The translations under genes and the position numbers were made by a program. Source: Candidatus Didemnitutus sp. (lineage in GTDB: Bacteria; Verrucomicrobiota; Verrucomicrobiia; Opitutales; Opitutaceae). Taken from it: a stretch of 64,000 nucleotides of DNA. This document shows positions 8,957 to 51,330 of this stretch, piece after piece. The first letter of the stretch is position 1, and every line of letters starts with the position of its first letter. Where the stretch lies: contig JAGOQJ010000002.1 of the NCBI GenBank assembly GCA_017991595.1, forward strand, positions 249,386 to 313,385, given 5' to 3'. Under the pieces are notes generated by a model. The model ran no database searches. It was given only the letters and a program-made list of their open reading frames with translations, and was not told the origin of the DNA.

Positions 8957-9011
8957 TCTCAAGCCGCCGGCAAAGGCTCTCATTCCCCTCACCTGCCGCG
9001 TGTGCTACGCT
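8957..9011 (+). promoter_or_regulatory. Tandem TCTCA operator plus -10-like box of the SGNH esterase gene
   Basis: Direct repeats TCTCAAG at 8957 and TCTCATT at 8978 are 21 bp apart. A TACGCT hexamer follows at 9006, 28 nt after the start of the second half-site. The spacer contains CCGGCAAAGG, nearly repeated in the beta-mannosidase operator. The same layout occurs at three other promoters of this locus, so it is read as an AraC/XylR-type activator site with the second half-site over the -35 region. It would place the transcript start near 9018, just before the ATG at 9022. Confidence 0.65.
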
Positions 9012-9021
9012 GCGTCTCAGC

Positions 9022-9735
9022 ATGCATTCCCCTGGCCACCCCTTCGCTCTGGTTCTGCGCAGCTTGGCGTTGCTGCTCGCCGTCATCGGCACAACGTTGT
9101 CCGTCCACGCCGACCCGGCGCGCTGGGAGACGGAAATCGCCCGGCTCGTCGCGCAGGATGTCGGGGTGCAAGCCGACGTGGTGTTCGTCGGCAGCTCCTC
9201 GATTCGCATGTGGCGAACGCTGGCGAACGATTTTCCCGGCGTGCGCGTCCTCAACCGTGGCTTCGGCGGCTCGCACCTTGAGGACAGCGTGTTCTATTTC
9301 GACCGCCTTGTGCTGCCGCACACCCCGCGCGTCGTGGTGCTCTACGCGGGCGAAAATGACATCTCGGCCGGCATGACGCCGGAGCGCGTGCTGGCGGACT
9401 TCCGTGCCTTCCGCGCCCGACTGCATGAAGCGTTGCCCGCGACCCACCTGATCTACCTTTCCTGCAAACCCAGCCCCTCGCGTGCGCGCCACCGCGACGG
9501 GATGCGCAAGACCAATGACCTCATCGCCGCCGAGTGCGCCGCGGACCCGCTCGCCACCTTCGTCGACATCTTCACGCCGATGCTTGATGCCGCCGGGGAG
9601 CCGCGGGCGGAGCTTTTCATCACGGACCGGCTGCACATGAACGCCACGGGCTATGCGCTCTGGACGAGCCTGCTCACCCCGCACTTGCAAGCCGCGTTGT
9701 CTGCCGCGCCCACGCCGCCCGTGCAGAATCGCTGA
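9022..9735 (+). CDS. Secreted SGNH/GDSL-type esterase
   Basis: A 237-residue exported hydrolase. The ATG at 9022 is chosen because it is followed directly by a signal peptide (hydrophobic 'LVLRSLALLLAVIG', likely cut after 'SVHA'); the open frame extends upstream but overlaps the glycosyltransferase. SGNH blocks are visible: block I 'FVGSSSIRMW' at about 55-64 (nucleophile probably Ser59), block II Gly in 'GFGGSHLED', block III Asn in 'YAGENDIS', and block V D-x2-H in 'TDRLHMN'. Members act on acyl esters; next to the AXE1 esterase and beta-mannosidase it most likely removes acetyl groups from a hemicellulose. Confidence 0.88.
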   Translation: MHSPGHPFALVLRSLALLLAVIGTTLSVHADPARWETEIARLVAQDVGVQADVVFVGSSSIRMWRTLANDFPGVRVLNRGFGGSHLEDSVFYFDRLVLPHTPRVVVLYAGENDISAGMTPERVLADFRAFRARLHEALPATHLIYLSCKPSPSRARHRDGMRKTNDLIAAECAADPLATFVDIFTPMLDAAGEPRAELFITDRLHMNATGYALWTSLLTPHLQAALSAAPTPPVQNR

Positions 9736-9759
9736 TCTCAACTTCACCGCATCCTCCCC

Positions 9760-11127
9760 ATGCCACCCCGCCTGCTCCGCTTCTGCTTCTCCGCGTTCCT
9801 CGTCACGCTGACCGGTCTGTGCGCATTCGCCGCCGGCGTGACCGAGATTACTCCCGTGCCCGGTTTCGCTCAACGTCGGTTGGCCGGCGTGAAAGTGCAG
9901 GTCACACCCGACCGCGCCGACTGGACTTACGCCGTTGGCGAGCCGGCGAAGTTCCGCATCGCCGTCTTGGCGGACAATCACCCGGTGCCCGGCGCGACCG
10001 TCACCTACACCATCGCCCCCGAATACACCCGTGCCGAGCCGGTCACGCAGAGCGTGCCGCCCGAAGGACTCGTCATCGACGCCGGCACGATGCAGGAGCC
10101 CGGTTTCCTGCGTTGCATCGTCGAGACGGAGGTCGCCGGACGCAAGGTCCGCGGTCTCGCCACCGCCGGCTTCTCGCCGGAGAAAATCGTGCCTTACCAG
10201 ACCAACCCGGAAGACTTCGACGCGTTCTGGCAAAAAGGCCGCGCGCAACTCGCGAAGGTTCCGCTCGAGCCGCGCCTGACGCTCATGCCCGAGGCCTGCA
10301 CCGATCTGGTGAACGTCTATCACGTGAGCTTCCGCACCATCGACGTCGGCTGGTCCGGCCCCGCGCGCATCTACGGCATCCTCTGCGAGCCGAAGGCGCC
10401 CGGCCGTTACCCCGCGCTGCTCCGCCTGCCCGGCGCCGGCGTGCGTCCTTATGCCGGCGACAAATCCACCGCGGCCCGCGGCATTATCACGCTTGAGATC
10501 GGCATCCACGGCCTCCCTGTCACGCAACCCAAGGAAGTTTACGACTCACTCTACGCCGGCGCGCTGCACGGCTATTGGCTCTTCAACCTCGACAACCCCG
10601 AGACCTACTACTTCCGCCGCGTTTACCTGAGCTGCCTGCGGGCGAATGATTTTCTCACCTCGTTGCCCCAGTGGGACGGGCGCAACCTGCTCGCCGTCGG
10701 CTCCTCCCAAGGCGGCCAGCTCGCCATCGTCACTGCCGCCCTCGACGAGCGCGTCACCGGCGTCGTCTCGGTGCACCCCGGCTTCTGCGACGTGACTGCG
10801 GAATACCTCCACCGCCGCGCCACCGGCTGGCCACGTCCGTTCCGCACCGAGGAACTCAACGCCTCGCCGCATGCCACCGCCGCCAAGTTGCGCACCGCGT
10901 CGCTCTTCGACACCGTCAACTTCGCCCGCCGCCTGCGCGTGCCCGGCTACTACACGTGGGGCTACAACGACGAGGTCTGCGCCCCCACGTCGCTTCACGC
11001 CGCCTACAACGTCATCACCGCGCCCAAGACGCTCGAGCTCACCCTCGAACTCGGCCACGCCTACACCGCCGAGCAATGGGACGCCATGCAGGCGTGGATC
11101 GGCCGCGCCGTTGGCCTGAAGAACTGA
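9760..11127 (+). CDS. Secreted acetylxylan/cephalosporin-C deacetylase-family (AXE1) esterase
   Basis: A 455-residue exported alpha/beta hydrolase. Residues 1-26 form a signal peptide ending 'LCAFAAG'. Residues about 30-145 look like an extra beta-sandwich domain; family members are usually about 320 residues. The catalytic domain has 'FDAFWQKGRAQL', the nucleophile elbow GSSQGG (Ser316), the acid in 'YNDEVC' and the His in 'LGHAYT'. It deacetylates sugars or acetylated oligosaccharides. It lies 24 bp after the SGNH esterase, so the pair should be co-transcribed, and precedes the beta-mannosidase by 130 bp that carry a separate promoter. Confidence 0.88.
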   Translation: MPPRLLRFCFSAFLVTLTGLCAFAAGVTEITPVPGFAQRRLAGVKVQVTPDRADWTYAVGEPAKFRIAVLADNHPVPGATVTYTIAPEYTRAEPVTQSVPPEGLVIDAGTMQEPGFLRCIVETEVAGRKVRGLATAGFSPEKIVPYQTNPEDFDAFWQKGRAQLAKVPLEPRLTLMPEACTDLVNVYHVSFRTIDVGWSGPARIYGILCEPKAPGRYPALLRLPGAGVRPYAGDKSTAARGIITLEIGIHGLPVTQPKEVYDSLYAGALHGYWLFNLDNPETYYFRRVYLSCLRANDFLTSLPQWDGRNLLAVGSSQGGQLAIVTAALDERVTGVVSVHPGFCDVTAEYLHRRATGWPRPFRTEELNASPHATAAKLRTASLFDTVNFARRLRVPGYYTWGYNDEVCAPTSLHAAYNVITAPKTLELTLELGHAYTAEQWDAMQAWIGRAVGLKN

Positions 11128-11159
11128 CCCCGCCGGCCCATGCGGCGCGCGTCGCGGAC

Positions 11160-11214
11160 TCTCATTTTCCGGACAAAGGATCTCATTAACCGGCGCCACG
11201 CGACCGGCTAGGAT
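11160..11214 (+). promoter_or_regulatory. Tandem TCTCATT operator plus -10-like box of the beta-mannosidase gene
   Basis: TCTCATT occurs at 11160-11166 and again at 11181-11187, exactly 21 bp apart, and each copy is followed two bases later by CCGG. TAGGAT lies at 11209-11214, 28 nt after the start of the second copy. This is the cleanest example of the four. It places transcription start near 11221, which rules out the upstream ATG at 11213 and supports the ATG at 11258. Confidence 0.7.
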
Positions 11215-11257
11215 GCCACCCGACCGGCCCGTCCCGGGCTGCGCTTTCCCCCATTTC

Positions 11258-13738
11258 ATGCACAGCTTTCCCCTCGCCTCCCAGACTTGGCAGTTCCGCG
11301 ATTGCACCGAAAAAGCCTGGCTGCCCGCTCGCGTGCCCGGATGCGTGCACACCGACCTGCTCCGCGCCGGCAAGATCAGCGATCCCTTCGTCGGCACGCA
11401 GGAGCTCGACGCCCAGTGGGTCGAACACCGCGATTGGGAATACCGCACGAGCTTCGAGCTGCCTGACTCGCTCGCCGCCCAGACGGGCATCGAACTCGTC
11501 GCCGACGGCCTCGACACGCTCGCGACCGTCATTCTCAACGGCCGCACCATCGCGCAGACGGACAACATGTTCATCGCGCACCGTTGGGACGTGAAGCCTC
11601 TCCTGCGTCGCGGACGCAACGAGCTGCGCATCCGCTTCGCCAGCACCGCGCCCTACGTGCGCGAGCGCAAACACCTGCACGCGCCGCGTGAGATCAACGA
11701 TCCCGTCGGCGGCTGCACCGTCATCCGCAAGCAGCAATGCCAGTTCGGTTGGGACTGGGGTCCGCGCCTCGTCACCGCCGGCATCTGGCGCGACATCCGC
11801 CTCGAAGGCTGGACCGGCAACCGGCTCGAATCCGTCCGCGTGACGCAGACCCACCACGCTGATTGCTCCGTCACGCTCACGCTGGACGCCGAGCTCCGCC
11901 GCCCCGCGCCGGACGCGACCTGCCGCTGGCGCGTCTCGCTCGACCGTGTGACCGTCGCCGAAGGCACGGGCAACACGATCCACCTGCCGCACCCACAACT
12001 GTGGTGGCCCGCCGGCCAAGGCGCGCAACCGCTCTACACGCTCGAGGTCGAGGTTGTCTCCGCCGCCGGCCCGACGATCGGACGCTGGGTCAAGCGCGTG
12101 GGTCTGCGCACGCTCGCGCTCGAACGCGTCGCCGACACTTGGGGCGAGAGTTTCCGCTTCGTCGTCAACAGCCGCCCGATCTTCGCCAAGGGCGCCAACT
12201 GGATCCCCGCTCACAGCTTCGTCGCCGGCCTGACCCGCGCCGATTACGCGCGCGATCTGCGCAGCGCCGTGCAAGCCCACATGAACATGGTGCGCGTCTG
12301 GGGCGGCGGCGTCTACGAAAGCGAGGATTTCTACGACCTGTGCGACGAACTCGGCCTGCTCGTCTGGCAGGACTTCATGTTCGCCTGCACGCTTTATCCC
12401 GGGACGCCGGACTTCGTCGCCAGCGTGCGCCGCGAAGCCGAGGGTCAGATCCGCCGGCTGCGCCACCGCGCCTGCCTCGCTCTCTGGTGCGGCAACAACG
12501 AGGTGTGGTCCATCAACGCCCACCTCGCCGGCACGCCGGAGTTCGCCCGGTGGCAGGAGGCTTACGACCAACTCTTCCATACGACGCTGCCCGACGCCGT
12601 CGGCGCACACGACGGCGCCACGCCTTACTGGCCCGGCTCGCCGTGGCGCGGCGACGCCGCCGCTGATCACGCCGCCGGCGAGAAGCGCGGCGACACGCAT
12701 TACTGGGACGTGTGGCACGCGCGCCACCCCGTGAAGGATTACGAGCGCTGGGCCTTCCGCTTCGTCTCGGAGTTCGGCATGCAGAGCTACAGCTCGCCCG
12801 CCACCAACGCCACGTTCTGCCCGCCCGGCGATGCCAACGTCTTCGGCCCGGTGATGGAGTGCCACCAGAAGAACCGCGCCGGCAACCAGATCATCCTCGA
12901 CTACGTCTCGCGCCGCTACCGTTTCCCCAAGTCGCAGGACGACCTCATCTATCTCTCGCAGCTCAACCAGGCCTACTGCATGCAGGCCGGCGTCGAGCAC
13001 TACCGCCGGCTCATGCCGCGTTGCATGGGCGCGCTTTACTGGCAGTTGAACGACTGCTGGCCCGTCGCGTCGTGGAGCTCGATCGAGTTCACCGGCCGAT
13101 GGAAAGCACTCCACTACGTCGCGCGGCGCTTCTTCGCCCCCGCCGCCGTCAGCGCGCACGTGCCGGGCGACGAGGAAGTCACGATCGGCAACTACCGCCG
13201 CAGCACCGTCGCCGAAGCGCATCTCTACACCGTCTGCGACCTGCCGCAGCGCACGCGTGGCCTGCTCCGCTGGGACCTCTGGCACCTCGACGGCCGGAGC
13301 CTGCTTCGCGGCCGCAAGCAGGTGCGACTCGAGCCCGGTGCCAGCCAGTTGCAGCGCACGCTCGCGCTCCAGCGCATGCTCGCTCGCCACGGTCGCGATA
13401 ACCTCTACCTGCGCATCGCGCTCGACGTCGACGGCGCCTGCGTGAGCGAGGACACCGTTTTCTTCGCGCCGCCGCGCTTCCTCGCGCTGCCGCGCGCCCG
13501 CACGAAGGTCCGCGTGAAGCTCGAGTCGCCGCGCCGCGCGGTGCTCACGTTCGCATCGCCGGTCTTCCAGCATCGCTTCGCTTTCGATCTCGCGGGCCTC
13601 GCACATCAGCCGGCCGACAATTATTTCGAACTCTACCCGGGCGAGGAGAAGCGCATCGTGGTCGAGCTCGGGCGGGCCGCCACGGTCGCGCAGTTGCAAC
13701 GCGCGCTCAGCTACCGCTCACTCGTCGACACCTATTAA
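11258..13738 (+). CDS. GH2 beta-mannosidase (copy 1)
   Basis: An 826-residue exo-acting glycosidase that removes terminal beta-mannose from manno-oligosaccharides or glycan stems. The N-terminus 'MHSFPLASQTWQF' aligns with 'MHCIDLQRAPWKF' of the second copy in this window, which together with the promoter position favours this ATG over the one at 11213. Sugar-binding, immunoglobulin-like and TIM-barrel domains are in the usual order. Catalytic residues are Glu415 (acid/base, 'WCGNNE') and Glu505 (nucleophile, 'VSEFGMQSY'). No signal peptide is seen, so it should act in the cytosol on imported oligosaccharides. The symporter gene starts one base after its stop. Confidence 0.93.
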   Translation: MHSFPLASQTWQFRDCTEKAWLPARVPGCVHTDLLRAGKISDPFVGTQELDAQWVEHRDWEYRTSFELPDSLAAQTGIELVADGLDTLATVILNGRTIAQTDNMFIAHRWDVKPLLRRGRNELRIRFASTAPYVRERKHLHAPREINDPVGGCTVIRKQQCQFGWDWGPRLVTAGIWRDIRLEGWTGNRLESVRVTQTHHADCSVTLTLDAELRRPAPDATCRWRVSLDRVTVAEGTGNTIHLPHPQLWWPAGQGAQPLYTLEVEVVSAAGPTIGRWVKRVGLRTLALERVADTWGESFRFVVNSRPIFAKGANWIPAHSFVAGLTRADYARDLRSAVQAHMNMVRVWGGGVYESEDFYDLCDELGLLVWQDFMFACTLYPGTPDFVASVRREAEGQIRRLRHRACLALWCGNNEVWSINAHLAGTPEFARWQEAYDQLFHTTLPDAVGAHDGATPYWPGSPWRGDAAADHAAGEKRGDTHYWDVWHARHPVKDYERWAFRFVSEFGMQSYSSPATNATFCPPGDANVFGPVMECHQKNRAGNQIILDYVSRRYRFPKSQDDLIYLSQLNQAYCMQAGVEHYRRLMPRCMGALYWQLNDCWPVASWSSIEFTGRWKALHYVARRFFAPAAVSAHVPGDEEVTIGNYRRSTVAEAHLYTVCDLPQRTRGLLRWDLWHLDGRSLLRGRKQVRLEPGASQLQRTLALQRMLARHGRDNLYLRIALDVDGACVSEDTVFFAPPRFLALPRARTKVRVKLESPRRAVLTFASPVFQHRFAFDLAGLAHQPADNYFELYPGEEKRIVVELGRAATVAQLQRALSYRSLVDTY

Positions 13739-13739
13739 C

Positions 13740-15188
13740 GTGAGCCTCGCCACCGCCGCCCCGTCCTCCGCCACGCCTGCAACGCGTCCGGCCGACCGCG
13801 TCCCGCTGCGTCAGAAAATCGCCTACGGCCTCGGCAGCTCCTGCGACATGTGGGGCCACTGGCTCTACCCGAGCATGGCGTATCCGGTGTTTAACCTCTA
13901 CCTCGGCGTGCCGCCACACCTGATCGGCATCGTCCTCATGGTGAACCGGCTCGCGGACGCGCTCTCGGATCCGTTCTTCGGCTGGGTGTCCGACAACACT
14001 CGCACGCGCTTCGGTCGGCGCCGGCCCTTCATCCTCGTCGGCGCGTTTCTCGCCGGTCTGGGTCTGCCGGTGCTCTTTCTCGCTTCGCCGACGTGGAGCA
14101 CGACGCAGCTGTTCCTGTTCATGCTCTCCTCGGCGCTGCTCTACGTGCCGCTGATGAGCTGCTTCAACATGCCCTACCAGAGTCTCGGCGCGGAACTGAC
14201 GCCGGACTACAACGAGCGCACGGCGGTCATGTCGTTCAAGGGCGCGTTGCAGAAAGTCGCGGAGCTCGCGCTGTATTTCGCGCTGCCGTTCACCACCCTC
14301 GCCTGGTTCACCGACCCGGCGACCGGCAAGCAGAACACCTTGCTGGGCGCGCAGGTCTATTGCGCGGGGCTCGGGCTGCTGATGATCGCGATCGGCGTCA
14401 TCATCTTCTTCACCGTGAAGGAGCGTTACTACGCGCACCTCGTGCAACAGGGACAGGAAAAGGTGAAGCTGCGCGAATCGTTCTACGAGACGCTGCGTTG
14501 CGCGCCGTTCCGCATCCAGCTCGGCATGTCGCTCGCCTTCGCCACCGGCACGAGCATGGTCAGTGCGCTTGGTTACTACGCCACTGTCTATGTCGTGTGC
14601 GGCGGCGATTCCGTCAGTGGCAACTGGTGGAACGCACGCATGGGCATCGCCTACATGGCGGGCGGCTTCCTCGCCGCGCCGGCCTTCGCCTTCCTCGCCC
14701 GCCGACTCGGCAAGCAGCGAGCCGCGGCCATCGCGATCGCGTCCGGCATCGCGGCCTTCGGCGGCACGTGGTGGCTCTACACGCCCGCCGTGCCGTGGCT
14801 GCAGGTGCTCGCGTCGGGCGGCATCGGTTTCGCCAGCGGCGGCTTCTGGATGCTGCTGCCCGCGATGGGGGCTGACATCATGGATTACGACGAGCTCAAC
14901 ACCGGCAAGCGCCGCGAAGGCGCATTCTCCGCCTGCGGCTCGTGGATCAGCAAGGTCGGCATGTCGCTCGGCGCAGGCGCGGCGGGTTTCGTGCTCAACT
15001 TGACCGGCTTCGACGCCGCGCTGCCGGTGCAGTCGCCCGACACGATTCTCCTCATCCGCGTGATGCTCGCGTCCATCCCGGTCGCCGGACTCACGCTCGC
15101 CTGGGTCATCCTGCTGCGTTACCCGCTGGGCGTCGCGCAGGTGGAGGACATCCGCCGCCAGCTGGAGGCGCGCCGCGGCACCGTTTAG
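13740..15188 (+). CDS. GPH-family glycoside/oligosaccharide:cation symporter (MFS)
   Basis: A 482-residue polytopic membrane protein with about 12 hydrophobic segments. Family hallmarks are 'QKIAYGLGSSCDMW' at the N-terminus, 'DPFFGWVSDNTRTRFGRRRPFILVGA' as the loop 2-3 signature, and 'ADIMDYDELNTGKRREGAFSA' in the second half. GPH members take up glycosides, pentosides or hexuronides with Na+ or H+. It starts with GTG one base after the beta-mannosidase stop, so import and hydrolysis of a mannoside are translationally linked. Confidence 0.9.
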   Translation: MSLATAAPSSATPATRPADRVPLRQKIAYGLGSSCDMWGHWLYPSMAYPVFNLYLGVPPHLIGIVLMVNRLADALSDPFFGWVSDNTRTRFGRRRPFILVGAFLAGLGLPVLFLASPTWSTTQLFLFMLSSALLYVPLMSCFNMPYQSLGAELTPDYNERTAVMSFKGALQKVAELALYFALPFTTLAWFTDPATGKQNTLLGAQVYCAGLGLLMIAIGVIIFFTVKERYYAHLVQQGQEKVKLRESFYETLRCAPFRIQLGMSLAFATGTSMVSALGYYATVYVVCGGDSVSGNWWNARMGIAYMAGGFLAAPAFAFLARRLGKQRAAAIAIASGIAAFGGTWWLYTPAVPWLQVLASGGIGFASGGFWMLLPAMGADIMDYDELNTGKRREGAFSACGSWISKVGMSLGAGAAGFVLNLTGFDAALPVQSPDTILLIRVMLASIPVAGLTLAWVILLRYPLGVAQVEDIRRQLEARRGTV

Positions 15189-15248
15189 CACGGAGCGTGT
15201 GGCTGGACCCTTGCCACGCCACGCGCGCTCACCCACGTTCGTCCCGAC

Positions 15249-16406
15249 GTGAAGCCCCAAGTCCTGCTCGTCTTCCTCACGCGCTTCGAGGAGTGCAACG
15301 CCATGCTGAAGGGCGTGGCGCACTACGAACGCACCCACCGCCCCTGGGCCGCCTTCCTCGACGACGAAGCGCGTGCCGAGAACGACCCGCAGTGGCTGCG
15401 CAGCAAGACCTGGCACGGCGTCATCAGCCGCCACACCACGCCCGGCCTCGTGCAGGCGTGCCGCGAGCTGAAGCTGCCGCTCGTCGATCTCAACGACACC
15501 GTGCCTTTCCGCGGCGTGCCGAAAATCCGGCCGGACAACACCGCCCTCGGCCACCTCGGCGCGGAGCATTTTCTCGAGCGCGGCCACCACCACTTCGGTT
15601 TTTGCGGTTTCCGCAACGACGGCTGGGCCTGCGAGCGCCGCGACGGCTTCATCGAGGCGCTCGCGCTCGCAGGGCAAACTTGCGAGGTCTTCGACGTCGA
15701 TTATCCGGGCGACCTGACACCATTCTGGGACGAGCGCCAGACCTCCGCGCTCGCCGCCTGGCTCAGCGCGTTGCCCAAGCCGGTCGGCGTCATGGCCTGC
15801 AACGATCTGCGCGCGCTCCAAGTCGTGAGCGCCGCGCAAGCCGCCGGCCTGCTCGTGCCCGAGGAAGTCGCCGTGCTCGGCGTGAACAACGACACCATCC
15901 GCTGCGAGCTCGCCTACCCGCCGCTCTCCAGTGTCGCGACCAACGCCTTCCAATCCGGTTACCTCGCCGCCGAGTGCCTCGCCCGGCTCATGGAAGGCGA
16001 AAAGCCCGAGAGTCTCGACGTGCGCGTCGAGCCGCTGTCCGTCGTGCCGCGCCATTCCACTGACGTGCTCGCGATCGACGATCGCAACGTCGCCGCCGCA
16101 CTCGGTTTCATCCGCGAGCACGCCTGCCACAATATTACCGTCGAGCAGGTGTTGAAGGCTTCTTTCGCCTCGCGCAGCCAGCTCGAGAAAAAATTCCGCC
16201 GCCTGCTCGGCCGCTCGCCGCAAGCCGAGATCCGCCGCGTGCAGGTCGCGAAGATCCGGCAACTGCTCTTCGAAACGGATTTCCCGATGAAGAAGATCGC
16301 CGAGCTCACGGGCTTCGAACACGTCGAATACATGTGCGTCGTGTTCAAGCGCCTCACCGGCGACTCGCCGGGCGTCTACCGCCGCAAGGTGCAGGCGCAG
16401 AAATAG
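15249..16406 (+). CDS. XylR-type transcriptional regulator (LacI-like sensor, AraC helix-turn-helix)
   Basis: A 385-residue regulator. Residues about 1-275 form a type I periplasmic-binding-protein fold as in LacI sensors ('IRPDNTALGHLGAEHFLERGHHHFGF', 'VLGVNNDTIRCELAYPPLSSV'). Residues about 283-381 form an AraC DNA-binding domain ('VEQVLKASFASRSQLEKKFRRLLG', 'MKKIAELTGFEHVEYMCVVFKRLTG'). GTG start, no clear ribosome-binding site. It follows the symporter by 60 bp. By location and family it is the best candidate to bind the tandem 21-bp TCTCA operators at the SGNH, beta-mannosidase, TonB-receptor and GH5-like promoters. Confidence 0.92.
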   Translation: MKPQVLLVFLTRFEECNAMLKGVAHYERTHRPWAAFLDDEARAENDPQWLRSKTWHGVISRHTTPGLVQACRELKLPLVDLNDTVPFRGVPKIRPDNTALGHLGAEHFLERGHHHFGFCGFRNDGWACERRDGFIEALALAGQTCEVFDVDYPGDLTPFWDERQTSALAAWLSALPKPVGVMACNDLRALQVVSAAQAAGLLVPEEVAVLGVNNDTIRCELAYPPLSSVATNAFQSGYLAAECLARLMEGEKPESLDVRVEPLSVVPRHSTDVLAIDDRNVAAALGFIREHACHNITVEQVLKASFASRSQLEKKFRRLLGRSPQAEIRRVQVAKIRQLLFETDFPMKKIAELTGFEHVEYMCVVFKRLTGDSPGVYRRKVQAQK

Positions 16407-16758
16407 GCCTTCAGCCCGCGCCTCGCTTGCAACGCGCCACCGCGGTGACGCCACGGACGGAGACGTCGTTTTTCCACCGATTCGCCGACCGCAAAGATTC
16501 TCAATCCACGTATAACCGAACTCATTTCCGATCGCCGCTCCGCAAGGTAACTTCGACCCGTCCAGCGTTCGTCCGCCCCCACCCCTTTGTTTTCCGCTGT
16601 GCTCCGTCTGTCGACTTTTTCGTTCGTGCCCCGCTATGGCGCGTTGCTCCACCGCCATCCTCGGCCCTTTCCGGCGCCATCCCTCGCGCGCGTGGACGGC
16701 TGATCCACGCCCTCCAGACACACCGGCAATAGAACTTCACGACCACACCTCGCACCCC
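16407..16758 (+). other. 352-bp gap: operator, promoter and long leader of the TonB-dependent receptor
   Basis: There is no gene here. The tandem operator and -10-like box sit at 16499-16553. From the inferred start near 16560 about 198 nt of leader run to the ATG at 16759. The leader is pyrimidine-rich with runs such as CCCCCACCCC and CTTTTTCG; I found no clear riboswitch fold or Shine-Dalgarno sequence in it. Confidence 0.5.
16499..16553 (+). promoter_or_regulatory. Tandem operator plus -10-like box of the TonB-dependent receptor gene
   Basis: TCTCAAT at 16499 and ACTCATT at 16520 are 21 bp apart; TAACTT at 16548-16553 lies 28 nt after the start of the second half-site. CAAAGAT precedes the first half-site, resembling the CAAAGG that precedes the second half-site at the SGNH and beta-mannosidase operators. 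The second half-site differs from TCTCATT in its first base. Confidence 0.6.
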
Positions 16759-19700
16759 ATGAAAAATCCGCCCCCGCCCCGCGTCTCACCGGTCCGACCC
16801 GCGCTCGCGTCCCTGCTCGCCGCCGCGGTTTCCCTGTGTCTCGGCGCCTCCGCCGCCGGACAGTCGACCACGACGATTCAGGACCAGACCGCCCCCGCCC
16901 CGGAGGAGCGCAAGATCAAGCTACCGCTCGAGGCCGCCGAGGAGGAGGAGACCGTGCAGCTTTCGCCCTTCACCGTCACCGCCGAGGCCGACCGCGGTTA
17001 TCAAGCCACCTCCACGCTCGCCGGCACGCGCCTGCGCACCGAGCTTCGCGATGTCGGCGCCGCCATCTCCGTCGTCAACGCGCAGTTCCTCGCCGACACC
17101 GCCTCGACCAACGCGAAGGACGTGCTCGTCTACACCACCGGCACCGAAGCCGCCGGCATGGGCGGTAATTTCTCCGGCGTCGCCACCGGCCAGGGTTTCT
17201 CGAACCCCGAGGACGGCCTCGTGAGCCCCAACAACGCCACCCGCGTGCGTGGCCTCAGCGGCGCCGACCTCACGCGCGATTTCTTCAGCACCGATATCGG
17301 GATGGACTCCTACAACACGGAGCGCATCGACATCTCGCGCGGCGCCAACGCCATCCTCTTCGGCCTCGGCAGTCCCGCCGGCATCATCAACAACCAGCTC
17401 AAGATGCCCAAGCTCCGCGAAAGCGGCATCACCTTCACCCAATCCGTCAGCCGCTACAGCTCGCACCGCGAGGTCCTCGACGTGAACCAAGTCGTCGCCA
17501 AGGACCGCCTCGGCATCCGCGTCATCGGTCTCAACGACGAGCGGCAATACCGCCAGCAACCCGCCTTCGAGGACGACCGCCGCCTCTACGCCGCGCTCCG
17601 CTGGGAGCCGCGCCTGATCAAGAACGGCTTTACCCAGCTCCAGGTCAGCTACGAGCAGGGCAACATCGAGGCCAACCGCCCGCGCGTCACGCCGCCGATG
17701 GACGGTCTCACCGTCTGGTTCGACGTGCTCAACAAGGTCCAGCTCGATCCCACCAGCCCCAGCACCGTCACGAACGATCCGCTGCTCGGCGCCCACCTCG
17801 GCTCCGCCGGCCGCTGGTTCGGCCAGGTCGGCGCCGTGTTCACCGATCCCGCCTCCGACACCCAGGGCGGCAACGGCGTCCCGGCCTTCATGATGAGTCG
17901 CGGCGGCACGCCCCTCTTCACCCAGTGGTTCGGCGTCTACAACTACACCGCCGCCGGCAACAACCCGAACTTCTTCCTCAACCAACAATACGCCCCTGCT
18001 GGCGAGGCCTACGCCGGACTCTGGAAATATCAGGAGCTCAGCGATCCCACTATCTTCGACTTCTACAACAAGCTCCTCGACGGCCCGAACAAACGCGAGT
18101 TCACCGAGTTCAACGCGCTCAACGCCTCGCTCCGCCAGACCTTCTTCAATGACGCCGTCGGCGTCGAGGTCTCCTACGACCAGCAGAACCACGCGCGCCG
18201 CAACCGCAGCCTCGTCGGGTTCGACGCCGCCATGATCCACGTCGACATGCAGACGAAGCTCGTCGACGGCTCCCCCAACCCGAACTTCGGCCGTCCCTAC
18301 TTCGCCTCCGATTCTATCGGCAACTACATGGTCGACACCGACCGCGAAGCCTTCCGCGCCACCGCCTACGCCACGCTCGATTTCACGAAGAAGGAAGGGT
18401 TCCTCCGCCACCTCGGTCGCCACACCTTCACCACTGTTTACAGCGATCAGGAAAGCCGCCGCCTCTCCCGCACGCACCAAGGCTACGCCTACACGACGGA
18501 CCAAAACATCTACGCCGACAGCGCCAGTGCTCTCTCCTATCCGGGCTACGCCGCCATCCACTATCTCGGCGATTCGATCGCACACCTGAACTCGGCTTCC
18601 GGTGCCAACATCGCCGGTCTCACCGCGCTCCACGAGCCGATCCCGACAGGCACCGCACTCCTCTTCGACAACCGCATCGACCAGTGGGTCTACGCGCCCG
18701 TCTCCGTCATCACGCCCGAGCGCGATCTCGACAAACTCTACTCCAACGCCTCGCGCTCGTTCAACACGACGCGCAGCTACTCCGCCATCTGGCAGGGCCA
18801 CCTGCTCAACCGCAAACTCGTCGGCCTCGTCGGTTGGCGCGAGGACGAGTTCTCGCTCTACGACGCGGGCGTCCCGCCCACCGTCCCCGTCACCGGTCAG
18901 GTTAATCCCTTCGATCCTGCCTGGGTCTTCCCGGCCACACCCAACATCTACGCCAAGGACCAGACCGTCAGCTGGAGCGTCGTCGGCCACACGCCCGATT
19001 TCATCAAGCGCCGCCTGCCGCTTGGCATGGATGTGAGCGTTTCCTACAACGAGTCGGAGAACTTCCGCCCGTCCTCCACGGTCGCCGACGTCTACGGCCG
19101 CCCCTTCTCGCCGCCCTCCGGTTCGACCAAGGATTACGGCGTCACCATCGGCCTCGCGAACAACAAATTCGTCCTCCGCCTCGTCCGCTACGAGACGCGT
19201 CAGGCCAACGACGTCAGCACCTTCTACAACACCTTCTGGCCCGGCAACGATCTCGTCCGCGCCATGAACGGCCTCCGCGGCACCAACACCTCCGAGGTGC
19301 TCATCAACCGCTGGTTCGGCTACCAGCCCGGCGACCCGAACTACCTGCCGGTGCGCGCCAGCATGACGAGCTCCACCAGCGCCAATCCCTCGCTCACCAC
19401 CGCCGAGCGCAACGCCCGCACCGCTTGGTTCAACGCCCGCACGCCCGAGGAGTGGCTGCGTCCCGTCGACCCGCTCCTCGTGCAGAGCTGGGGCATCACC
19501 CAGAACGCCAGCGGCACCTGGACCGCCACCCGCCCGCCGAACGTTGGCAACATCGCCGACACCGAGTCGCGCGGCACCGAGATCGAGGCCACCTACAACC
19601 CGCTTCCAAACTGGCGCATCACCTTCAACGCCGCCCGCCAGGAGGCCTTCCGCTCCAACTACGGCAAGGACTTCGAGGAATTCATCGCGAACAACCTCCC

Positions 19701-20256
19701 GCTCTGGACCGACGGCGACGGCGTCATCGCCTCCAGCATCCGCGCGCAGAACGGTTTCGAGGACATCCCCTACTTCAACAGCGTCACCGGCTCGCGCTTC
19801 GGCGTGATGGCGATCAACAACATGTATATCCCCTACCTGAACGCGCTCGCCGCCAACAACGCGTCCGTGCAGGAGCTGCGCAAGTGGCGCTTCAACTTCG
19901 TCACCAACTACGAGTTCACCAGCGGCCGCCTCAAGGGCTTCGGCATCGGCAGCGCCGTCCGCTGGCAGGACCGCGCCGCCATCGGCTACGGCGTGAAGAA
20001 GAACGAGCTCGGCATCTGGGTCTCCGACATCGAGCAGCCCTTCTACGGTGACGAGGACCTCGACGTCGACCTCTGGCTCCGCTACGCCCGCAAGCTGAGG
20101 AACGGAAAGGTCCGTTGGTCCATCCAGTTCAACATCCGCGACGTGCTCGGCAACGACGACCTCATCGCCGTCACCGCGCAACCCAACGGCCAGGTCGCCT
20201 CATTCCGCATTCCGCAGCCGAAGCAGTGGACGCTCACGAACACCTTCGCCTTCTGA
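16759..20256 (+). CDS. TonB-dependent outer-membrane receptor (copy 1)
   Basis: A 1165-residue outer-membrane transporter that takes up ligands using TonB energy. ATG at 16759 gives a signal peptide ('LASLLAAAVSLCLGASAAGQ'); the frame is open further upstream but into the promoter. A low-complexity acidic linker leads to 'VQLSPFTVTAEADRGYQATSTLAG', the plug entry typical of this group. The plug has 'RTELRDVGAAISVV' and 'IDISRGANAILFGLGSPAGIINN', and the rest is a large beta-barrel ending 'WTLTNTFAF' with the terminal Phe of outer-membrane barrels. With neighbouring esterases and mannosidase it likely imports manno-oligosaccharides. It ends in front of a strong terminator. Confidence 0.93.
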   Translation: MKNPPPPRVSPVRPALASLLAAAVSLCLGASAAGQSTTTIQDQTAPAPEERKIKLPLEAAEEEETVQLSPFTVTAEADRGYQATSTLAGTRLRTELRDVGAAISVVNAQFLADTASTNAKDVLVYTTGTEAAGMGGNFSGVATGQGFSNPEDGLVSPNNATRVRGLSGADLTRDFFSTDIGMDSYNTERIDISRGANAILFGLGSPAGIINNQLKMPKLRESGITFTQSVSRYSSHREVLDVNQVVAKDRLGIRVIGLNDERQYRQQPAFEDDRRLYAALRWEPRLIKNGFTQLQVSYEQGNIEANRPRVTPPMDGLTVWFDVLNKVQLDPTSPSTVTNDPLLGAHLGSAGRWFGQVGAVFTDPASDTQGGNGVPAFMMSRGGTPLFTQWFGVYNYTAAGNNPNFFLNQQYAPAGEAYAGLWKYQELSDPTIFDFYNKLLDGPNKREFTEFNALNASLRQTFFNDAVGVEVSYDQQNHARRNRSLVGFDAAMIHVDMQTKLVDGSPNPNFGRPYFASDSIGNYMVDTDREAFRATAYATLDFTKKEGFLRHLGRHTFTTVYSDQESRRLSRTHQGYAYTTDQNIYADSASALSYPGYAAIHYLGDSIAHLNSASGANIAGLTALHEPIPTGTALLFDNRIDQWVYAPVSVITPERDLDKLYSNASRSFNTTRSYSAIWQGHLLNRKLVGLVGWREDEFSLYDAGVPPTVPVTGQVNPFDPAWVFPATPNIYAKDQTVSWSVVGHTPDFIKRRLPLGMDVSVSYNESENFRPSSTVADVYGRPFSPPSGSTKDYGVTIGLANNKFVLRLVRYETRQANDVSTFYNTFWPGNDLVRAMNGLRGTNTSEVLINRWFGYQPGDPNYLPVRASMTSSTSANPSLTTAERNARTAWFNARTPEEWLRPVDPLLVQSWGITQNASGTWTATRPPNVGNIADTESRGTEIEATYNPLPNWRITFNAARQEAFRSNYGKDFEEFIANNLPLWTDGDGVIASSIRAQNGFEDIPYFNSVTGSRFGVMAINNMYIPYLNALAANNASVQELRKWRFNFVTNYEFTSGRLKGFGIGSAVRWQDRAAIGYGVKKNELGIWVSDIEQPFYGDEDLDVDLWLRYARKLRNGKVRWSIQFNIRDVLGNDDLIAVTAQPNGQVASFRIPQPKQWTLTNTFAF

Positions 20257-20274
20257 CAAGGTCGCTGAGGGCCC

Positions 20275-20308
20275 CCTCGTAGGCCGCGAGCTTGCTCGCG
20301 CCCACACC
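20275..20308. repeat. REP-like element A, first copy
   Basis: A 34-bp element with the near-palindromic core GCGAGCTTGCTCGCG. It matches the copy at 20890-20923 at 30 of 34 positions in the same orientation. The core can fold as a hairpin in RNA. It directly precedes the terminator of the TonB receptor gene. Confidence 0.75.
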
Positions 20309-20313
20309 TGCAA

Positions 20314-20340
20314 GCCTCCGCTCTCCGCGGAGGCTTTTTC
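20314..20340 (+). terminator. Intrinsic terminator of the TonB-dependent receptor gene
   Basis: Perfect 8-bp stem GCCTCCGC (20314-20321) and GCGGAGGC (20327-20334) with a 5-nt loop, followed by five T residues at 20335-20339. It lies 58 bp after the receptor stop codon. Confidence 0.9.
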
Positions 20341-20451
20341 TTGGTGCGTATCCCGGCCACGCGCCGCACCAGCGTCCCCGCCGCCCGCCCAATCTCCCCT
20401 TCGCCCGCTCTCTTCCAGTAGACACCGTGCTCGCACGCACCGCGCTATTCA

Positions 20452-20477
20452 GGCGCGACCAAGGTCTCCGCCCACCC
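20452..20477. repeat. REP-like element B, first copy
   Basis: Begins GGCGCGACCAAGGT and recurs at 20854-20879 in the same orientation, identical over the first 14 bases and diverged over the next 12. Confidence 0.65.
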
Positions 20478-20575
20478 GGCCGACAACGTGGCGGAGCGCG
20501 GGGCTGCGCCCCAGGCAGCGCGCCGGCACACACCCCTGGCGCCTTCCCATTCCGGGGGCCAAGCCCCAAGCCGGT

Positions 20576-20596
20576 TTGTAGTCTAATAGACTACAA
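20576..20596. promoter_or_regulatory. Perfect 21-bp palindrome, first copy (operator-like)
   Basis: Arms TTGTAGTCTA and TAGACTACAA around a central A, with no mismatch. The same 21 bp recur at 20778-20798. It is AT-rich in a GC-rich setting, typical of a dimeric repressor site, but no promoter or start codon follows within the gap. The binding protein is unknown. Confidence 0.7.
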
Positions 20597-20775
20597 GTAT
20601 GCCGACACGCACCGCTCATGGATGCGCATGGTCGCCGCACGCCCGAATCCCCAGCGCGCATCCGGCACGCACAGTCGGCCCGTTTTCATTCGGGAAAGTG
20701 CACCTGCGAGGAGCGCCAGGCGTCCGACATCAGCGCGCTCCCGAGTCCTTGGGCGGTGCCTGCGATCCCAAGTAA

Positions 20776-20800
20776 GTTTGTAGTCTAATAGACTACAAAC
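20776..20800. promoter_or_regulatory. Perfect palindrome, second copy, extended to 25 bp
   Basis: Same core as at 20576-20596 with two more paired bases on each side (GT...AC), giving 12-bp arms around a central A. The centres of the two copies are 202 bp apart. No adjacent gene reads from it. Confidence 0.7.
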
Positions 20801-20853
20801 CGCAGGCTGCCTCGGAGGGGAGAACGGGAACGCGCGTGGCCGGCCACCGCCGG

Positions 20854-20879
20854 GGCGCGACCAAGGTTGCTGCCTACCC
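20854..20879. repeat. REP-like element B, second copy
   Basis: Starts GGCGCGACCAAGGT like the copy at 20452. Its end, CTGCCTA at 20870-20876, pairs with TAGGCAG at 20895-20901 inside the next element, so elements B and A may fold together here. Confidence 0.65.
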
Positions 20880-20889
20880 AGAGGCGAAC

Positions 20890-20923
20890 CCTCCTAGGCA
20901 GCGAGCTTGCTCGCGCTAACACC
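20890..20923. repeat. REP-like element A, second copy
   Basis: Matches the copy at 20275-20308 (30 of 34). It lies 10 bp beyond the stop of the GH5-like gene, and its hairpin core may serve as that gene's 3' end. Confidence 0.75.
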
Positions 20924-20933
20924 GCCGCCTCGC

Positions 20934-23036
20934 TCACTCGATCTTCTCGATCAGCACCGCCGCGTGACGCGCGATCTCCGGCGTCGCCACGCGCAAGGCG
21001 CCTCCGGCATGGGCGCGCTCCTCGACCTGCGCCGGCCCGCCGCGCTCCATGTCCCACCACATGATGCGCCAGCGTCCCGCGTCCACCGCATCCAGCACGA
21101 GTTCCCCGCTTGCCGCCGCCGTCGGCGCCGCCGCCATGACGCCCTCGCGGTGCCAGAGATAAACCATCGCCGCCGTCGCGCTGCGCCGCCCGATCGCCGC
21201 CAAGGCCGTCACCTCGTCCCCCTGCACTTGGATGCTGCCGATGCGGAAGGAATCGGGCCCGAGATTGCGCAAGGTCACCGCGTGGCGCCCCGCCGGCACC
21301 GCGAAAGCCAGCTCGCCCGGACGCAACGTTTCCTTTGAGGCGCGCTTCTCGCGCGGCCATGTCACGCGCTCTTTTCCACCGCCGTCGCGCTCGATCGCGA
21401 TCGTCGCACCGCGTTCGCCGACATCTTTCAACCGCACCTGCACGCGCCCGGGCGCGACGCGGTCGAACACCAGTGTCACACGGTCCGGATGCCCATCCGC
21501 CAGTAGCGCGCGCCGGGGCGGCACCACGTATTCCGGCACATCCGCCAGCGCGACGAGCGGATCGCATGCGGCCGCCACGTCGAGCGTGAGCGGCTCACGC
21601 GCCGCCCAGTGAAATCCCGGGGTGAGCACCTGAGGCACGCACACGGCGGTGTGAATCTCCGGCCGAAATTCCTGCAGCTCGTGCGTCCGCTCCGCAAACC
21701 GCGCCTGCGCCACAAAGCGGCTCCACGCAGCGAATTCTCCCCAGCGCGGCGTATCGAGCACACGGTCCCAATACCACAACTGCGCCGGCAGCGCGCCCGC
21801 CGCCATCAAGCCGGCCCACAGCGGCGGCACGAGCCCCGCGCCGCTTACCTTGTCCTCCGACGTCGCGAAGGCTTGGTGATCGTCGCCTATCTCGCCGTAG
21901 AAAACCGGCTTGTCCGCCGGCAGCGGCAAGCCCGGGAAACGCCGCGCATGCGCCAGACCGTTCACCGCGTAGAGATGCGGTTGGTAGTAATCCATCGTGC
22001 GCCAGAGCGGACTCGTCAGATCCTCCGCACTCGTCGTGACGAGGTGACCGTGCGGGTCGTGACGCCGCAGGTAGTCCGCCATCTCGGCGTGCCAGCGCAC
22101 GACCGCATCGTGCCGGCGCGAGCGTTTCCACGCATCGGTGTAGTGCACCTCGTTGAAAAGTTCCCACGCCAGCACCGCCGCGGAGTATCCGTATCGCGCG
22201 GCAAAATAGCGCAGCTTCAACCGCGTCTCGCGCTGCGCCCGCGCATCGGTGAAGAACGCCGCCGGGTCAGCGAGGAAGCCTCCGTTGCGCGTGTTCCATG
22301 GATGTCGGGGCCAGGACGGATTCACCTCCGTGCTGAACTGCCCGTGCTGGAACAACACCACCTGCACATAGAGCCCGTGCTCCTCTGCGGCCGCGAGCAG
22401 CCTGTCCCACCGGCGCGCGATTTCGAGATCTAGTTCGCCCGAAGCCGGTGAGCGCGCGGGCTCTTCCCGCCACGCGGGGTCAAGTTCGCCCCAGCTCACG
22501 ACCCAGAGTCGCACCCAGTTCGCACCCGCGTCCCGCAGCGCTGCGAAGGCTCGCAGGTAATAGGCATCGTCGCGCGCCCAGGCCACATTCAGCCCGACTG
22601 GATAATACGGCGCGCCGTCGGTGCGTTGAAAGGCGTCCGCTTGCGCCGGATGCCGCCGCACCGCCGGCACCGCGAGCGGGCCGTCGTGCACGATCGTCGC
22701 GCCGCCTTCGAGCGCGATCTGAGGTTCGGTCCGCTGCCCCGCCGCATCGCCGCGGCGCACACGCTGCAATCGATATTCGCCCCGGGCTTCGGCCCGCACA
22801 CGCACGCGCCACAGGCCGTCGCCGTCGAAGAATGCGGGAAACGCACGCACCGTGCCGTCCGGACGCCGGATTTCCGCCCACCACTCCTGCGCGAATGGCT
22901 GAGCGCCGACCTTGGCCGGGCGAAAAGCGAACTCCACGAACGTGCGCGCGCCCTTCGTATCGAGGGCGACCGACGCCACAGCCGAGCTCAGGCCCGAAAC
23001 CCAGCCGGCGAGAAGGAAGATCAGCACACGTCGCAT
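20934..23036 (-). CDS. Secreted DUF5060-containing GH5-like glycoside hydrolase
   Basis: A 700-residue exported enzyme. The ATG at 23036 gives a signal peptide ('RRVLIFLLAGWVSGLSSAVAS'); the upstream GTG at 23102 would coincide with the inferred transcript start and is less likely. Residues about 20-110 match the DUF5060 beta-sandwich ('FVEFAFRPAKVGAQPFAQEWWAEI'). A (beta/alpha)8 barrel follows: 'YYPVGLNVAWARDDAYYLRAFAAL', acid/base Glu296 in 'WELFNEVHY' and nucleophile Glu382 in 'FYGEIGDD'. C-terminal beta-sandwich domains complete it. In the beta-mannosidase locus an endo-mannanase role is plausible but not proven. It has its own operator at 23109-23164. Confidence 0.82.
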   Translation of the reverse strand: MRRVLIFLLAGWVSGLSSAVASVALDTKGARTFVEFAFRPAKVGAQPFAQEWWAEIRRPDGTVRAFPAFFDGDGLWRVRVRAEARGEYRLQRVRRGDAAGQRTEPQIALEGGATIVHDGPLAVPAVRRHPAQADAFQRTDGAPYYPVGLNVAWARDDAYYLRAFAALRDAGANWVRLWVVSWGELDPAWREEPARSPASGELDLEIARRWDRLLAAAEEHGLYVQVVLFQHGQFSTEVNPSWPRHPWNTRNGGFLADPAAFFTDARAQRETRLKLRYFAARYGYSAAVLAWELFNEVHYTDAWKRSRRHDAVVRWHAEMADYLRRHDPHGHLVTTSAEDLTSPLWRTMDYYQPHLYAVNGLAHARRFPGLPLPADKPVFYGEIGDDHQAFATSEDKVSGAGLVPPLWAGLMAAGALPAQLWYWDRVLDTPRWGEFAAWSRFVAQARFAERTHELQEFRPEIHTAVCVPQVLTPGFHWAAREPLTLDVAAACDPLVALADVPEYVVPPRRALLADGHPDRVTLVFDRVAPGRVQVRLKDVGERGATIAIERDGGGKERVTWPREKRASKETLRPGELAFAVPAGRHAVTLRNLGPDSFRIGSIQVQGDEVTALAAIGRRSATAAMVYLWHREGVMAAAPTAAASGELVLDAVDAGRWRIMWWDMERGGPAQVEERAHAGGALRVATPEIARHAAVLIEKIE

Positions 23037-23108
23037 GCGCAGAGGAAACGCATCCACCCAAGACGGGGCGACGGCACGGGGCGACAGAATACTGGGGCTC
23101 ACACGTCC

Positions 23109-23164
23109 ACTTTAACGCGCCGCCCTGCCATCAGCCATGAGAGCGCCCGCGCGCAGGATTGAGA
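23109..23164 (-). promoter_or_regulatory. Tandem TCTCA operator plus -10-like box of the GH5-like gene
   Basis: Read on the minus strand, TCTCAAT starts at 23164 and TCTCATG at 23142, 22 bp apart. TAAAGT starts at 23114, 28 nt after the second half-site start. The spacing is one base longer than at the other three sites. It places transcription start near 23102 and supports translation from the ATG at 23036. Confidence 0.55.
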
Positions 23165-44772: not shown

Positions 44773-46344
44773 TTACACCAGTGGCTCATCGCTGCGATCC
44801 CAGACGGTCAGGTTGGTCAAATCGCGTGGCGCCGCTTTCCATCGCAGCGAAAAAAGATAGGCCGCGACCAAAGCCAGAAGGTTCCCCAAGATGGATAAGT
44901 AGTAAGACGGGATGCGAATCGCCAGCGCCTCGGGAGCCCAGCCGGCATTGCTGAGCATAACCCACCCCATCAAGGTCAAGGCGACCACGAGTCCTCCCCA
45001 GACAGCGCCGGAACCGACGCGACGCGTGAACATGCCCGCAATGAAGACGGAAGGAATGCCAATCGTGATGATGACCCCCGCGCCGAGCATGAAATCCGTC
45101 AACGTCAGCATGTCCAATCCGTGGATCAGCAGCGCTCCTGCCACCATGCCGACCGAGACGAGCAGCGCGAACCACTTCCCCAGCCTCAGGCACTGCGCGT
45201 CGTTGGCGGAGGCATTGAGGTATTTGCGGTAGATATCTTCCACCGCCACCATGCTCGAGACATTGATGCAGGCGCTCAGCGTCGACATCGCCGCGGCAAA
45301 CGCTCCCGCGATCACCAATCCGGCCAATCCCACCGGCAGGTAGTGCATGATGAAATGGGGCATCAGACGCTCCGCCTTGTGCACACCGGCGAGGATGCCC
45401 GACGCCACCGGATCGGGATGATGCAGAAAATAGACGAACAGGCAGACGCCAAGAAATTGAAAGAGCGCCCAGACCGGCAGGCAGCCGAGGCCGAGCACAT
45501 ACATCGAGCGGCGCGCGTCGCATGCGGTGCGCGCCGAGCACCAGCGCTGCACAGTGGACTGATCGAACTGCAGGTTGAGATACTGGATCAAACCCACGAG
45601 GAAAACCATCAGGACGGTCTTCTCCTCGAAACCCCCGAACCAAGGCGTGGGCACCAGCTGACCGCCCGTGGCATCAAGGTCGTAGACGGAGAACTTGTGA
45701 TGCGCCGCCCCTTCGCTGAACACGCTCCACAATCCGCCGGGAATACCGTGCAGGACGACGGCCATGCACGCCAGCGCTCCGACCAACAGGATGACCGCCT
45801 GCACCACGTCGGTCCAGATGACAGCATTGATGCCTCCCTTCACCGTGTAAGCCGCCGTCACGCCCACGACGAGCAACAGCGAGGCGGTGAACCCCCACCC
45901 TGTGATCTCTCCCACCAACAACGAAAGCAGATAAGCAATCATGCTCGTGCGCAGCAACTGGGTGAGGATGAAGACGACGGATGCATAGGCCGAGATCGAC
46001 GGACCGAAGCGCAGCGCGAGGTAGTGATACGCCGAGGTGATCGTGCCGCGGCGGAAAAACGGCACCAGCAGCCACGCCGCCGCGAACGTCACCAGCGGGA
46101 AAGCCAGACTCGGCACGAACCGATACCACGCAGTCTTGAACGCATCAGCCGGCGTGGCCATGAAAGTCACGGAGCTGATCACTGAGCCGATGAAACTCAG
46201 GCCGATGACCCACCCGGAAAAAGAACGCCCGCCGAGGAAATACTGATCGGTCGACTTGTTCTTGCGACCGACATAAACGCCGATCGCGAGCTGGCTGAGG
46301 AAATAGACGACCAGCACGAAGAGGTCGGCGGCGGAGAGTCTCAT
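44773..46344 (-). CDS. Sodium:solute symporter (SSS family)
   Basis: A 523-residue membrane protein with about 13 hydrophobic segments. Family marks are 'FFLGGRSFSGWVIGLSFIGSVIS' (as 'YFLGGRS') in the first loop, 'TAAYTVKGGINAVIWTDVVQAVILL', the signature before TM6, and 'AGAFAAAMSTLSACINVSSMVAVEDIYRKYL' with the Na+-site Ser pair. Substrates in the family range from sugars to sialic acid. As the last gene of the operon with a sialidase-like and a NanA-family protein, it probably imports the released monosaccharide. It lies 19 bp after the sialidase-like gene. Confidence 0.92.
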   Translation of the reverse strand: MRLSAADLFVLVVYFLSQLAIGVYVGRKNKSTDQYFLGGRSFSGWVIGLSFIGSVISSVTFMATPADAFKTAWYRFVPSLAFPLVTFAAAWLLVPFFRRGTITSAYHYLALRFGPSISAYASVVFILTQLLRTSMIAYLLSLLVGEITGWGFTASLLLVVGVTAAYTVKGGINAVIWTDVVQAVILLVGALACMAVVLHGIPGGLWSVFSEGAAHHKFSVYDLDATGGQLVPTPWFGGFEEKTVLMVFLVGLIQYLNLQFDQSTVQRWCSARTACDARRSMYVLGLGCLPVWALFQFLGVCLFVYFLHHPDPVASGILAGVHKAERLMPHFIMHYLPVGLAGLVIAGAFAAAMSTLSACINVSSMVAVEDIYRKYLNASANDAQCLRLGKWFALLVSVGMVAGALLIHGLDMLTLTDFMLGAGVIITIGIPSVFIAGMFTRRVGSGAVWGGLVVALTLMGWVMLSNAGWAPEALAIRIPSYYLSILGNLLALVAAYLFSLRWKAAPRDLTNLTVWDRSDEPLV

Positions 46345-46363
46345 GAGCGAGAGGCGTTGGCTT

Positions 46364-47677: not shown

Positions 47678-47699
47678 GCGAACGGAAGGTCGGTGGAAA

Positions 47700-50615: not shown

Positions 50616-50650
50616 TTTCTTGGGGGTTGAAACAGCGGGGGCCTCGAGTG

Positions 50651-51319: not shown

Positions 51320-51330
51320 GGATGTCGGGG

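Follow-up and report, generated by a model that had tools for sequence, protein, structure and literature searches.

Which protein switches on the genes of a mannan-degradation locus in Candidatus Didemnitutus sp. (Opitutaceae, Verrucomicrobiota), and through which DNA element does it act? The locus lies in a stretch of 64,000 nt (GCA_017991595.1, JAGOQJ010000002.1, positions 249,386-313,385), which was analysed as a whole and is called the window below; position 1 is its first letter. A first-pass annotation of this DNA had described pairs of direct half-sites with the consensus TCTCAWT, each followed by a TAnnnT hexamer, upstream of four genes (sites A to D), and had proposed that they are recognized by a XylR-like regulator encoded at 15249-16406. 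Our analysis makes it very probable that this protein is a XylR-type activator of a galactoglucomannan regulon, which would act via the tandem operator and would also stimulate its own synthesis. Sites, geometry, conservation, co-occurrence with the regulator and gene content were obtained directly by computation, and from these we infer binding, activation, inducer and transcript starts.

Geometry of the tandem operator and its predicted promoter

To describe the operator, a position-specific scoring matrix (PSSM) was trained on 27 sites, sites A, B and C among them, which were chosen by their half-sites alone. In this matrix each half-site consists of two boxes, YAA-N4-WCTCAWT, the second box (C/T)AA lying four bases upstream of the first; in refined form the half-site reads YAA-N4-WCTCATT. 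Regulator orthologs of relatives were fetched together with their flanks, and 63 distinct sites were tabulated in these loci, while an enlarged collection of loci yielded 70 distinct copies. TCTCAWT pairs that deviate by no more than one base were counted in 25 ortholog loci (400 kb); 20 of them had a spacing of 21 bp, and each other spacing between 8 and 59 bp occurred zero to two times. When two-block matches were searched at spacings of 10-44 bp, 57 of 63 were 21 bp apart and 2 were 22 bp apart.

The promoter signals emerged from the same matrix. A TA...T signature appeared at +49/+50/+54, although the sites had been picked on half-sites only. Of 32 non-redundant held-out sites outside the training set, 27 have TAnnnT exactly 28 nt past the first base of the proximal half-site, and the 34 other offsets (15-49) together yielded three matches. 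The proximal half-site alone is followed by additional conserved bases (T26 T27 .. C30), which form a -35 element TTNMC(N) with a 17-bp spacer to the -10 element. Its commonest hexamers are TTAACA, TTCCCG and TTCACG, and the third base is rarely G. By these features the promoters look like activator-dependent promoters of the sigma-70 type, in which the operator overlaps a poor -35 element. Such an overlap is the established arrangement for class II activators of the AraC family. The proposed geometry, with direct half-sites about 21 bp apart and the proximal one overlapping the -35 element, was thus borne out by the spacing, the -35 signature and the 17-bp spacer.

In the window, site A (8957-8984, plus strand) consists of the half-sites TCTCAAG (8957-8963) and TCTCATT (8978-8984), with a proximal CAA box at 8971-8973, and its -10 hexamer TACGCT (9006-9011, plus strand) begins 28 nt after the start of the proximal half-site (PSSM score 32.5). 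Site B (11160-11187, plus strand; score 39.0) carries TCTCATT twice (11160-11166 and 11181-11187) and is followed by TAGGAT (11209-11214, plus strand), and site C (16499-16526, plus strand; score 50.7) carries TCTCAAT (16499-16505) and ACTCATT (16520-16526) and is followed by TAACTT (16548-16553, plus strand). Site C is the top-scoring site of the window, in which the best place outside the sites scores 3.5. The coordinates given in the first-pass annotation for all four sites and their -10 boxes were correct, as were the spacings (21 bp at A, B and C, 22 bp at D) and the position of TAnnnT at +28 in each case. Its consensus TCTCAWT held without mismatch for B; A, C and D each deviate by one base.

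The same 21/28 geometry was also sought with other half-sites around regulator paralogs of 41-56% identity, where 21 bp ranked top, but marginally (9.17 versus an average of about 8.4). At the locus of a 44% identical homolog (L163), AACTCATG and GTCTCATG lie 21 bp apart upstream of the gene at 13789, which encodes 1070 aa, with TAGAGT at +28. The tandem geometry may extend to distant paralogs.

Rarity of the operator in the window and the genome

Chance was estimated by simulating the window 400 times with a Markov model. Pairs with no more than one mismatch in total and a spacing of 21 or 22 bp arose 0.03 times on average and none had TAnnnT at +28, whereas the window itself contains four such pairs, all four with a -10 element. 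At other spacings only scattered pairs were detected. As a lone half-site, AAAGNNTCTCATT occurs in the window about as often as expected (6 versus 5.9 copies), so only the tandem arrangement is informative.

The host genome (2.88 Mb) was scanned by pattern; PSSM scans covered the window and the loci. With up to three mismatches allowed, the operator plus -10 element matched sites A, B and C alone, each with zero mismatches, and the reversed-pattern control gave one match. A cruder TCTCA..TCTCAT pattern matched six times in the genome, at A, B and D and at three places that lie within coding sequence or at its border. The expectation that matches would be found at related loci and not in coding regions was confirmed, as all 63 sites tabulated in the relatives' loci are intergenic.

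The operator co-occurs with the XylR-like regulator

The regulator gene (15249-16406, plus strand) is the last gene of the unit behind site B. The N-terminus of its product is a LacI-type sensor domain (Pfam Peripla_BP_3, 1.8e-35) and the C-terminus an AraC-type double helix-turn-helix (HTH; HTH_18, 4.6e-18; HTH_AraC, 8.5e-13). Its best relative in the PDB is E. coli XylR (4fe4/4fe7, 2e-47), aligned over residues 16-378.

To follow operator and regulator through the family, 200 Opitutaceae genomes were surveyed, with orthologs defined by at least about 60% identity. The exact operator was present in 37 genomes, namely in 32 of the 48 with a regulator ortholog versus 5 of the 152 without one (Fisher p = 5e-20, a value that serves only as a guide because the genomes are related and not independent). 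Of the matches in these five genomes without an ortholog, four were examined and all four lacked a -10 element. Three genomes that have an ortholog carry sites on contigs separate from the regulator's; these sites precede GH130 or TonB genes and possess a -10 element. Windows around the paralogs of 41-56% identity held no site scoring above 18, versus about 70 in the ortholog loci. Among genomes of the class outside Opitutaceae, one operator match at chance level was found and no spread beyond the family was seen. The assignment of the sites to this regulator in the first-pass annotation is therefore supported by its sensor and HTH domains, its relatedness to XylR, the family-wide co-occurrence and the mannan-related gene content.

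In several homologs without a site, the first recognition helix reads SRSL rather than SRSQ. A covariation rule based on these residues was dropped, and no simple helix rule applies, because L116/L117 (SRSL, with 22-bp operators) and L136 (SRSL) have sites while some SRSQ homologs have none.

Genes behind the operators

Site A precedes a gene for an SGNH/GDSL esterase (9022-9735, plus strand; Pfam Lipase_GDSL_2, 8e-18), which forms one unit with a gene for an acetyl xylan esterase-like (AXE1) esterase (9760-11127, plus strand; PF05448, 2e-39). The predicted transcript start at about 9018 is about 4 nt ahead of the ATG at 9022, which may leave the mRNA of the SGNH esterase with almost no leader. 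The sister genome L037 shows this arrangement too. Site B is followed by genes for a GH2 beta-mannosidase (11258-13738, plus strand; Glyco_hydro_2_N2, 8e-62, and Mannosidase_ig), a GPH-family sugar symporter (13740-15188, plus strand; MFS_2, 6e-66; TIGR00792 gph, 5e-57, below its cut-off) and the regulator. For GH2 the start ATG 11258 is preferred, because the alternative ATG 11213 would fall inside the -10 element. Behind site C lies the gene of a TonB-dependent receptor (16759-20256, plus strand), whose start was set by codon usage, as used for calling genes in GC-rich DNA; Pfam Plug (5.5e-8) was detected on the reading frame 16636-20256. Site D precedes, on the minus strand, a gene for a DUF5060-containing GH5-like hydrolase and putative mannanase (20934-23036, signal-peptide ATG at 23036). 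DUF5060 scored just under the Pfam cut-off, and PDB relatives are 9gmj (1e-26) and the GH5 endo-mannanases 3ziz/1qno (3e-5 to 6e-5).

Genes were called within reach of 64 of 67 sites. Targets were TonB (30), GH130 (12), GH1 (8), AXE1 (4), DUF5060 hydrolases (3), GH2 (2) and GH26 (2), with SGNH, GH5 and MFS once each; in relatives, GH130, GH26, GH27, GH1 and GH5 genes stand behind operators. By their annotation these targets are parts of a galactoglucomannan pathway comprising backbone cleavage (GH26/GH5), deacetylation, import, side-chain removal (GH27) and phosphorolysis or hydrolysis (GH130/GH2/GH1). The order GH2-GPH-regulator recurs behind one operator, and in many relatives the regulator belongs to an operator-led unit.

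Some loci of relatives show further features. Genes for FG-GAP-repeat and TPR proteins (Pfam-typed in L051) recur directly after the operator-led TonB gene in L043, L051, L053 and L054. In L116 and L117 (G040, G074), of the same genus, an AXE1-regulator-TonB locus lacks GH2 and the symporter, and its TonB receptor is 78-79% identical to that of the window; a second GH2/GH130 locus carries a more distant TonB. The locus of the window looks like a merger of two loci of this type, or these like a split of the former. The TonB operators of L116/L117 are spaced by 22 bp, as is an AXE1 site with CATCGT as its -10 element.

Other parts of the window were inspected as well. A long probable exopolysaccharide cluster (23204-43718; O-antigen ligase-like protein, glycosyltransferases, sugar-nucleotide enzymes) adjoins the mannan locus. 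By translations only, a second locus at 44773-52245 comprises a possible symporter (44773-46344), a possible TonB receptor (47700-50615) and other probable sugar genes, and no matching operator was found there. The region 59958-63998 is taken up by a very long open reading frame whose repeats (TLSGANTYTGATTI) resemble those of autotransporters.

Proposed mechanism and alternative explanations

In the mechanism we propose, the regulator would bind as a dimer when a mannan-derived sugar is present and would occupy the two direct half-sites of the 21-bp repeat. At the proximal half-site, which ends in the weak -35 element 17 bp upstream of TAnnnT, the bound regulator would touch RNA polymerase and thereby switch the promoter on. 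The units activated in this way would be the esterases (A), the beta-mannosidase, symporter and regulator (B) and the TonB receptor (C); activation of the GH5-like hydrolase (D) would be weaker. Since the regulator gene closes unit B, the protein would raise its own level.

Several observations weigh against this picture. The exact pattern was not matched in 16 of the 48 genomes with an ortholog; variant sites are present in some of their loci (L126, L132, L136), and others hold no site. Several close homologs that share 61-75% identity, such as L041/L125 of isolate EW11, lack a site nearby, some of them with the same recognition-helix residues, and site D, the weakest of the four, fits the operator poorly. 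The tally of targets stems mostly from loci picked for holding the regulator and is not independent of this choice; it is thus descriptive, and its unbiased part is the pattern scan together with the sites on other contigs. As some ortholog loci are devoid of any site, close homologs appear to have other targets. The homologs of L041/L125, L048, L127 and L128 (67-75% identical) are surrounded by unrelated genes, and no matching operator lies close to them. When further tandem motifs were sought de novo at the site-less homologs, nothing rose above the spacing controls.

The same protein might sit on the same tandem sites as a repressor that blocks the -35 and -10 elements until the sugar releases it, since the proximal half-site overlaps the -35 element, where bound protein could exclude polymerase, and LacI-type sensor domains are common to many repressors. 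We consider this improbable: the -35 element departs from the consensus, which suits an activator-dependent promoter, PMC12125979 describes the closest relatives, E. coli XylR and Vibrio XylRA, as activators, and the half-sites are direct and promoter-proximal like those of known AraC-family activators (PMC4514859). Slightly less probable still is that the operator belongs to another AraC-family protein, encoded elsewhere and co-evolved with the locus, while the adjacent regulator binds something else. Homologs with identical or nearly identical recognition helices but no site nearby would fit such a scenario, and the half-site sequence of an AraC-type protein is not readable from the protein with certainty; yet the operator tracks the 15249-16406 regulator across the family, immediately adjoins it in most orthologous loci and appears to govern the unit that holds it.

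For site D alone (23136-23164, minus strand; TCTCAAT at 23164 and TCTCATG at 23142, -10 TAAAGT at 23109-23114), a coincidence has to be weighed, in which the GH5-like gene would be part of the neighbouring exopolysaccharide cluster and outside the regulon. The PSSM score of 10.7 is reached only by dropping one spacer base, the proximal half lacks its AA box, control DNA contains a match of this level with a good -10 element roughly every 312 kb, and the next gene upstream encodes an O-antigen ligase-like protein. Nevertheless a coincidence is unlikely in our view, because in the sister genome G133, where the spacing at D is 21 bp and the -10 element reads TAGAGT, 0 of 19 core positions changed versus 18 of 68 other alignment columns (p = 0.007). 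Moreover, DUF5060 hydrolases 38-39% identical to that of the window have strong operators directly upstream in L044, L113 and L115, and the 22-bp spacing has precedents at the L116/L117 operators. Site D is thus probably a weak member of the activator's regulon, as the first-pass annotation had claimed, though with less support than it implied.

Comparison with known systems

We found neither this operator nor any such regulon of Verrucomicrobia in the literature searched. As far as this literature shows, the motif, the phylum, the substrate for XylR-type regulators and the tightly fixed distance between operator and promoter are new. We lean, by a narrow margin, towards a hard-wired operator-promoter module across Opitutaceae that runs complete galactoglucomannan breakdown via a one-component cytoplasmic XylR-like sensor, as a TonB-type regulon without membrane sensors of the Bacteroides kind, and whose close regulator paralogs are drifting to other DNA targets. 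The exact motif with its -10 element lets genes be assigned to the mannan regulon in Opitutaceae, and for organisms in which genetic tools are scarce the operator-promoter is a candidate for an inducible promoter.

E. coli XylR shares with the window regulator the LacI-type ligand-binding domain and the AraC double HTH, and its operators are direct repeats (Ni et al. 2013 as cited in PMC12125979). It serves the xylose pathway, whereas the regulon described here concerns mannan and includes a TonB receptor and polysaccharide genes. Closer in setting is Vibrio XylRA, a XylR-type regulator in a polysaccharide locus, whose beta-1,3-xylan regulon has one tandem-repeat motif at five promoters, established by cross-genome comparison and electrophoretic mobility shift assays; there, the repeat is AT-rich, the effector is xylose, the host belongs to Gammaproteobacteria, and the accessible text reports no fixed distance from operator to -10 element (PMC12125979). 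For the AraC-type hybrid two-component regulators of Bacteroides, including HTCS_Man, direct repeats averaging 21 bp apart were predicted ahead of polysaccharide-utilization genes, mannan loci included; these are membrane sensor kinases for alpha-mannans, in contrast to the one-component cytoplasmic regulator of another class described here (PMC3878776).

Two short boxes per half-site, one for each HTH, are likewise present in the operators of XylS (TGCA-N6-GGNTA), MekR (CACC-N5-CTTCAA) and AraC (TAGC-N7-TCCATA), and XylS and MekR also share the 21-bp period (PMC4514859). The sequences of these boxes differ from YAA-N4-WCTCATT. XylS, MekR and AraC also have other sensor domains than the window regulator. 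Judged from its sequence, the system is a XylR-type AraC-family activator system by every tested feature.

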